Position numbers and translations under genes: made by a program. The notes beneath the pieces were generated by a model. It was not told the origin of the DNA, did no database searches, and worked only from the letters and a program-made list of their open reading frames with translations. 64,000 nt of DNA from Alteriqipengyuania abyssalis (GTDB lineage Bacteria > Pseudomonadota > Alphaproteobacteria > Sphingomonadales > Sphingomonadaceae), in contig NZ_JAHWXP010000004.1 in NCBI RefSeq assembly GCF_019857185.1, positions 62,001 through 126,000 of the forward strand, read 5' to 3'. Below, one piece after another: positions 23,336 through 24,478 of the stretch (positions are counted from its first letter, which is position 1; each line of letters opens with the position of its first letter).

Positions 23336-24478
23336 TTACTCCGCGACATCTGGAAAATTGAAACCCCGCACGATTTTCATCGTGCCGCCTTCGATCTCCA
23401 CCAGCGCCACCGGGACGCTGCCCGATTTCGCGAAATAGAGCCCGTCGGCGTGGGGCAATCCGGAAAGGACCCGGCCCTGGCGGGCCGCCTGCGCTTGCTC
23501 CGGATCGAGGGAAAGGGCCGGGATGTCGTCCAGCCCCGCCTCTATCGGCAGGAGTAGGTCTTGAAGCTGCGCGCCGTTACCGATTTCATTGAGTTTGTCC
23601 AGCGAAATCGCCTGCTCCTCGGCGAACGGGCCTGCGCGCGTTCTTCTCAGGTAGGTAACGTGCCCCCGCGTGCCAAGGGCCAGCGCGATATCCCGTGCAA
23701 GGGACCGGATATAGGTACCCTTGCTGACCGTCGCCTCCAGCGTCACGCTCTCGGCAACTTCGAGCGGGGCGGACGGATCGAACGGGTCCGGGCGGCCGGT
23801 GGTGGTCTGGAAGGTGGATTCCAGCGCGCCATCACTCCTCTCCCCTTGCGGGAGAGGATACCAAGGCTCGTGAGCTTGCTCGCTAGCCGGAGTTAGTGAG
23901 GGGGACGTCGCGCTATCACCCTCACCTGGCTGCGCTAGGTCGTTTTGCGACCAAGCTTCGCCGTCCTCTCCCGTCAGGGGAGAGGAAAGGCGTAGCGCGT
24001 GAATCGTCACCTTGCGCGCCTTCAGCTCGACGTCTTCCCCTGCCCTCGCCAGGTCGTAGGCCCGCTTGCCGTCGACCTTCAGCGCCGAAAAAGCAGGCGG
24101 CACCTGCTCGATCGGGCCGGTGAAGCGGTCGAGCACTCCCGCAACCGCAGCCAGCGGCGGGAAGCGGTTCGAGCGCGCCACAACCTCGCCCTCCGTATCG
24201 AGCGTGTCGGTCTCCTCCCCGAACTGGATCGTGAAGATATAAGTCTTGGTCGCATCGAGCATCCGGCCCGCCAGCTTGGTCGCCTCGCCCAGCGCGATCG
24301 GCAGCACGCCTTCGGCCAGCGGGTCGAGCGTGCCGCCATGGCCGATCTTGGTCTTGGCATAGCCACCTTCGCGCAAGGTTCGCTTCACCGCGCTGACGCC
24401 CTGGGTCGAACCCATTCCGCGCGGCTTGTCGAGCACGATCCAGCCCGAGGGCGGCATCTTCTTGTCTTTGTCGTTCAC
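23336..24478 (-). CDS. truB: tRNA pseudouridine-55 synthase TruB with an in-frame insertion
   Basis: Makes pseudouridine 55 in the T-loop of tRNAs. The catalytic loop is GHGGTLDPLAEG (D52), preceded by WIVLDKPRGMGSTQGV and followed by YIFTIQFGEETDTLDTEG; the conserved VSKGTYIRSLARDI and a C-terminal domain are present. At 380 residues it is longer than the usual ~310: residues ~165-214 (SPLTGED... to ...PLPQGERSD) are encoded by a palindromic repeat element inserted in frame between the catalytic core strands. A GTG start (24478) is chosen; ATG 24457 (MPPSGW) is possible. rpsO follows after five bases. Confidence 0.95.
   Translation of the reverse strand: MNDKDKKMPPSGWIVLDKPRGMGSTQGVSAVKRTLREGGYAKTKIGHGGTLDPLAEGVLPIALGEATKLAGRMLDATKTYIFTIQFGEETDTLDTEGEVVARSNRFPPLAAVAGVLDRFTGPIEQVPPAFSALKVDGKRAYDLARAGEDVELKARKVTIHALRLSSPLTGEDGEAWSQNDLAQPGEGDSATSPSLTPASEQAHEPWYPLPQGERSDGALESTFQTTTGRPDPFDPSAPLEVAESVTLEATVSKGTYIRSLARDIALALGTRGHVTYLRRTRAGPFAEEQAISLDKLNEIGNGAQLQDLLLPIEAGLDDIPALSLDPEQAQAARQGRVLSGLPHADGLYFAKSGSVPVALVEIEGGTMKIVRGFNFPDVAE
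23837..23985. repeat. Palindromic repeat element inserted inside truB
   Basis: A ~149-bp element bounded on each side by a hairpin of the same type: CCTCTCCC-N5-GGGAGAGG (23837-23857) and CCTCTCCC-N5-GGGAGAGG (23965-23985). Internal stems are GTGAGGG/CCCTCAC (23896-23902 with 23919-23925) and GGTCG/CGACC (23938-23942 with 23948-23952). The structure matches the dispersed intergenic palindromes common in alphaproteobacterial and other GC-rich genomes, whose translated ends often read PLPQGER. Here it keeps the truB frame open. Confidence 0.85.

Follow-up and report, generated by a model that had tools for sequence, protein, structure and literature searches.

A single loop of the tRNA pseudouridine(55) synthase TruB is repeatedly occupied, in frame, by palindromic DNA repeats that belong to different families, and close relatives carry different inserts at this one position. 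The case described here lies in the window, i.e., the whole analysed stretch of 64,000 nucleotides (C4:62001-126000 of the 3.10-Mb genome G000), where a 149-bp element (family A; 23837-23985, minus strand) was delimited within truB from its hairpins, reading frame and folding and from the loops of its relatives.

The family A element in the truB gene

The truB gene (23336-24478, minus strand) was recognised by its reading frame, by the Pfam domains TruB_N and TruB_C_2, and by PDB matches in sequence and fold, the best fold match being 1k8w, the E. coli TruB with RNA (E 2.9e-29). The combination of TruB_N, the C-terminal domain and the TruB fold placed the product in the TruB family, and the 3.10-Mb genome gave only this one truB match. 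The encoded protein comprises 380 aa when counted from the GTG at 24478, where the start codon was assumed, and the frame was uninterrupted across the whole gene. Residues 165-214 were encoded by the element, between TruB_N (residues 42-165) and TruB_C_2 (residues 258-316), in agreement with the preliminary description, in which the segment was said to stay open and to add about 50 residues. An intergenic element mistaken for a coding one was rejected in view of the domains on both sides and of the ORFs of 59 other stretches, which align on both flanks.

The bounding hairpins had been proposed as two copies of CCTCTCCC-N5-GGGAGAGG, and both were found as exact matches, namely CCTCTCCC-CTTGC-GGGAGAGG at 23837-23857 and CCTCTCCC-GTCAG-GGGAGAGG at 23965-23985. 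The element as a whole is a symmetric pair of inverted units of approximately 66 nt, with a consensus common to other copies. Half unit 1 (23837-23902, 66 nt, minus strand), assigned by alignment with eight other units, has the inner end GTGAGGG (23896-23902). Half unit 2 (23919-23985, 67 nt, plus strand), assigned from the sequence and the unit alignment, has the inner end CCCTCAC (23919-23925) and an inner stem formed by GGTCG (23938-23942) and CGACC (23948-23952). The units are separated by a 16-nt spacer (23903-23918), and the internal stems that had been anticipated were all located inside the element. The alignment of nine family A units (seven from the window's genome and two from truB of G276) contained 28 invariant columns out of 69. 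Folding of 23830-23995 as single-stranded DNA gave a z-score of -5.3, with none of 200 shuffles as good. The Rfam search of 23700-24100 returned nothing above the gathering score (one match, E 0.45, 19.9 bits versus 168), and a known RNA family was rejected on these grounds.

The AlphaFold2 model of TruB, built with 56 sequences, had a mean pLDDT of 81, with 204 of the 380 residues at 90 or more. Residues 179-225 fell below 50 and were located between the strands 155-164 and 244-251. The insert is therefore predicted by the model to be disordered and to sit between two core strands, which is consistent with the loop suggested at the outset. If translated, it may be read as a disordered surface loop of about 50 residues.

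The TruB loop in the genus and the family

All 10 genomes of the genus contained TruB, and nine of them carried a palindromic insert at the loop, drawn from four families. Element A was present in G000 and G001, element B (GTCATGCTGAAC.. / ..GTTCGGGGTGACGA) in G004, G005, G008 and, half-deleted, in G002, element C (TCCTCCCC..GGTGGAGG / CCTCCACC..GGTCC) in G003 and G006, and element D (CCTGAGCCTGTCGAAGG / CTTCGACAAGCTCAG) in G007. The loop of G009 had no insert. The TruB flanks of G002, which carries element B, and of the window's genome, which carries element A, were 97-98% identical.

TruB was found in 293 of the 298 family genomes drawn. We read the loop in 100 of these genes (10 from the genus and 90 others among the best matches of the 293), a sample in which near relatives are over-represented and, since the query itself had an insert, insert-bearing genes as well; palindromic inserts were present in 26 of the 100, in 13 genus codes. 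They were divided into families A (3), B (6), C (10), D (3) and E (3) and an A-like variant, F (1), with the C inserts alone spread over 7 genus codes. Both flanks shared one open frame in all 100 loops, including 26 of 26 with inserts. In blastn comparisons of 18 of the 26 inserts, the best within-family E values were 3e-10 or better and the best between-family value was 0.056. Judged by sequence similarity, the loop is accordingly host to five families without detectable mutual similarity, plus the A-like variant; families B and E are nonetheless alike in their CGTC-tagged architecture. Compared with dinucleotide shuffles, 24 of the 26 inserts folded with a z-score of -2.1 or lower, the two weak ones being L054, half of which is lost (-0.5), and L065 (-1.6). 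Ten chosen insert-free loops gave values between -0.9 and 0.6, but these loops were shorter (48-60 nt). Three further long TruB loops were counted neither among the 26 nor in the states: L113 (z 0.6) and L133 (z -0.4), which have no hairpins, and L142 (z -3.0), an ambiguous case. Homologs with the same inserted residues in DNA that is not palindromic would have spoken against a repeat origin, and they were absent among the 100 family loops read.

An approximately 25-residue segment around GRPDPYDPxAPLELAD (TruB residues 219-243) adjoins the insert and is shared by most of the 100 proteins. It was absent from 11 short loops and from 10 of the 26 loops with inserts (L066, L067, L111, L117, L129, L138, L141, L147, L149 and L151).

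Among named loci from another collection, 10 of 58 had an insert, several of them from the same genomes as the census. The carriers included Pontixanthobacter aquaemixtae (C), Erythrobacter sp. HI0063 (C) and Qipengyuania citrea CGMCC 1.8703 (E). Q. citrea H150 had no insert, with flanks 92-93% identical to those of CGMCC 1.8703, and a clean target duplication was not seen in this pair. When the loop was excised from 108 TruB proteins and a tree built from the rest, the 7 states scored over 105 rows could be fitted with no fewer than 23 changes, or 16 if just the presence or absence of an insert was scored; 41 of the 105 inner branches were open, and the change count is a guide rather than a precise figure. 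On this one gene tree, most of the insertions appear to be independent. In the sample of the class, TruB was matched in 229 of 241 genomes, 225 of them outside the family; of the 146 outside rows among the matches listed, none had 20 or more extra residues relative to a short-loop query (the largest excess was 18). No insert was present in any of the 23 loci readable by pattern among 30 class loci, the other 7 being unreadable.

Dispersal of the repeats and a second site in glyS

The repeats found at the TruB loop are dispersed. The 3.10-Mb genome contained the family A hairpin pattern 11 times and the reversed control not once, which supplied the further genomic copies expected of a dispersed repeat and speaks against chance hairpins. 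The truB copy was the only full-length match, with five shorter matches elsewhere. The single motif CCTCTCCC was unremarkable in the window, as its 6 matches were equalled or exceeded in 7 of 100 shuffles. Across the 10 genus genomes, there were 2-20 family A cores per genome (control 0), 1-16 family B cores (control 0-1) and 10-60 family D cores (control 0-2). The window's genome held 30 family E cores versus 6 in the control and, as the sole genome counted for this family, two family C copies versus none. Its other family A copies were mostly between genes by our reading of the ORF context in the sequence, and none of the six other family A places passed the codon-position test for an in-gene location. 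One family A element forms the last codons of an ORF (L009, G000:C1 around 565,850) and may supply its C-terminus; the ORF had no Pfam family, and the gene directly after it is presumably imuB-like.

With strict patterns, which miss variants (two further glyS inserts escaped them), we located 22 complete elements in the window's genome, belonging to families A, B, D and E. Three of the 22 had an identified host gene: the family A element in truB, a family B element in cysS (Pfam tRNA-synt_1e) and a family D element in glyS (Pfam tRNA_synt_2f). A one-core family E element was additionally found inside a nitrite/sulfite reductase (NIR_SIR) gene, and the products of three of the four identified host genes (truB, glyS and cysS) act on tRNA. 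The family B element in cysS, encoding cysteinyl-tRNA ligase (L276, G000:C2 around 888,875-888,975), and the family E hairpin in the reductase gene (L248, G000:C3 around 22,750) are both in frame. A coding-like frame around an element at L285 was without a Pfam domain and was set aside. At a cutoff of E <= 0.001, the Y1/RAYT transposase (PF01797, the only transposase family searched) was absent from all 10 genomes of the genus and detected in 5 of 14 control genomes, which argues against RAYT-driven REPs.

Within stretches of approximately 20 kb from the 10 genus genomes, all seven complete (two-core) elements were in truB. The same was true of 12 of the 20 complete elements in all 60 stretches (1.18 Mb, of which truB makes up 5.2%), divided into 7 of 7 in the genus, 4 of 8 in seven stretches that had been selected for carrying inserts (L062-L068) and 1 of 5 in the remaining 43 stretches (L069-L111). 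The 60 stretches contained 47 element clusters, the family E pattern being weak over them (23 matches versus 10 in the reversed sequence). By a homology test, 33 of the 47 clusters fell within ORFs, among them four complete E elements away from truB (L090, L091 and two in L110); the four ORFs holding these had no Pfam domain and were taken as shadow frames. None of the eight complete elements outside truB passed the codon-position test, which is fairly sensitive at best and missed 3 of the 12 in truB (L055, L062 and L068). One family E element was common to two related genomes (L091, 10810-10877; L110, 10882-10949) and is positioned 327 bp from truB, beyond the coding part of the gene.

The glyS gene, encoding the beta subunit of glycyl-tRNA synthetase, was read in 30 genomes, and its site 1 (residues ~290-325 of the partial protein of the window's genome) is a second recurrent landing site with the same pattern as the TruB loop. 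Among the 10 genus members, site 1 held A/F-like inserts in two, E or E-like hybrids in five, D in two and a short remnant in one, as assigned by eye from DNA and folding. Inserts or single hairpins were present in 3 of the 20 other genomes (L301-L303), and the remaining 17 had no long insert, judged on length only. The hairpin z-scores of 13 site 1 inserts ranged from -1.4 to -8.8. The remaining two glyS sites had recognised inserts in 2 of 30 and 3 of 30 genomes, and the second of them is length-variable elsewhere. In the window's genome, a single glyS gene (L284/L292, G000:C1:657900-660035) bears three palindromic inserts at three sites. Hybrid dimers with unlike left and right halves were observed at site 1 in L294, L297 and L304, with CACCCCGGACTTGATCCGGGGTCC as the left half in both L297 and L304, joined to a family E-like right half. 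From their sequences, these hybrids look as if repeats recombine or land in one another.

Known repeats and the origin of the occupancy

The copy number and taxonomic spread in this group had been regarded in the preliminary description as apparently uncharacterised. Repeats within truB are, however, already on record: the part of PMC3733652 (Di Nocera, De Gregorio and Rocco 2013) available to us, which describes CGTC- and GTAG-tagged REPs, names S. maltophilia, E. 'lithoralis' and S. alaskensis as species with REPs inside this gene and R. conorii as one with RPE-1 there. It also names tRNA synthetases and pseudouridine synthases as REP hosts in other species, and thus shares with our data palindromic repeats within truB and in tRNA synthetases. 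The difference is that its cases are given species by species, whereas here one TruB loop is occupied by five families in 13 genera. In the sections covered, insertion at the same site is named for recB of two Xanthomonas species only, and REPs in other genes of one functional category are at different sites (PMC3733652). Searches of open-licence literature turned up no account of repeated insertion into a single TruB loop, and PMC3733652, as far as covered, gives none either; the new part is the site itself.

The likeness to Rickettsia palindromic elements (RPEs) proposed earlier stood for behaviour and did not extend to membership. RPEs are described, in the part of the source seen, as dispersed elements of ~150 bp in frame within unrelated genes (PMC10969869). 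The window's element is likewise palindromic and multi-copy, with 149 bp, inverted units and 11 hairpin places, although at full length it occurs only in truB, and in-frame copies were found in coding genes, namely truB (A), cysS (B), glyS (D) and the NIR_SIR gene (E). The hosts are different, and family A is likened to RPEs by behaviour rather than by sequence. CGTC-tagged REPs, as far as their description was seen, have an unpaired CGTC (TGTC, CCTC), a stem of 8-9 bp mostly starting with AT, a loop of 4-5 nt and a CCA tail, and the CGTC-1 class includes Neisseria dRS3 and RPE-6 (PMC3733652). In the relatives, families E and B show the CGTC tag, a stem of 8 bp that begins with AT, a loop of 4 or 5 nt, the CCA tail and the inverted pairing, and match the descriptions of CGTC-1 and CGTC-2, respectively (PMC3733652). 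In contrast, family A of the window has, by eye, neither an unpaired CGTC tag nor a CCA tail (stem CCTCTCCC/GGGAGAGG). Short dispersed palindromes in inverted pairs are also typical of REP/REPIN systems with RAYT, from which the present repeats differ in the absence of the Y1 transposase from the 10 genus genomes. The window's element was assigned neither to the RPEs nor to the CGTC/GTAG REPs.

We consider it likely that non-autonomous repeats scatter through these genomes and that in-frame, stop-free copies survive in a permissive TruB loop and turn over there. A dispersed palindromic repeat of two inverted units of ~66 nt would enter the turn between the TruB core strands. Insertion would take place genome-wide, and selection would remove most in-gene copies, leaving those with a stop-free frame, a frame-keeping length and a permissive protein site. 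The TruB loop, which may be neutral to such additions, would then be a recurrent landing place at which five families arrived in frame and were subsequently replaced, trimmed or lost. The half-lost insert of G002, the glyS remnants and the weak hairpins of 2 of the 26 inserts suit this reading. Pure tolerance does not obviously account for the frequency at one loop. Since no insert was found among the 146 listed rows outside the family, tolerance of the fold alone is insufficient. Pure tolerance also fits poorly with how often two tRNA enzymes are hit and with the almost constant presence of inserts in the genus; a limit to this family is at odds with the covered part of PMC3733652, which notes inserts in truB of both R. 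conorii and S. maltophilia. A target preference, by which the repeats or their movers would recognise the TruB site (e.g., an existing hairpin) and new copies would land in or beside old ones, could explain the exchange of A (G000, G001) for B (G002) between flanks 97-98% identical, the hybrid dimers of glyS site 1 with differing halves (L294, L297, L304) and the 7 of 7 complete elements of the genus stretches in truB. We regard it as rather unlikely, however, as families with different ends occupy one site, the 10 insert-bearing loops without the GRPDP segment indicate that no single flank is required, the Q. citrea pair had no clean target duplication and the genus had no Y1 transposase. A broader form of this idea is slightly more plausible, though still doubtful: loops of tRNA-acting enzymes (TruB, the beta subunit of glycyl-tRNA synthetase and perhaps cysteinyl-tRNA synthetase) might be preferred pads beyond surface tolerance, for a target or RNA-level reason, with turnover so fast that close species differ.

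A selected function of the hairpin RNA or the peptide, e.g., autoregulation of truB mRNA by the RNA-binding protein it encodes, or a modulation of activity or stability, might be suspected from the three of four identified hosts that act on tRNA (beside the nitrite/sulfite reductase), from the synthetase and pseudouridine synthase hosts reported in the covered part of PMC3733652, and from retention of the insert in nine of the 10 genus members. It seems improbable to us, given that the peptides are unlike between families, the hairpins decay (L054, L065), and no insert was counted in one member of the genus or in 74 of the family's 100 genes that we read. The T-arm-like motif GTTCRANNC was present in none of 39 loops tested, which speaks against mimicry of the TruB substrate in the mRNA. 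Exchange of loops by interspecies recombination, with far fewer insertions than the tree suggests, would fit the occurrence of one family in several genera (C spans 7 genus codes) and a single-gene tree with 41 of 105 open inner branches. We hold it to be equally improbable, because C inserts occur in loops both with and without the GRPDP segment and five families imply at least five arrivals. Strong hairpins bound the segment, as might be expected if it were absent from the product through ribosome bypass or through excision from RNA or protein; nevertheless, all 26 inserts share an open frame with both flanks, which would be needless in either case and makes this by far the least probable of the alternatives.

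Palindromic repeats in frame within genes have been described in Rickettsia and, as scattered cases, elsewhere, and truB had already been noted, without explanation, as a repeated host. Near relatives with A, B, C, D or no insert at one loop constitute a natural replicate experiment, which makes it possible to test whether such peptides are neutral passengers, whether the repeats have a target preference, and how mobile palindromes supply conserved enzymes with new loops. Filled and empty relatives are on offer for biochemistry, and this part of an ordinary enzyme seems to be a place where repeat DNA settles time and again and is tolerated.
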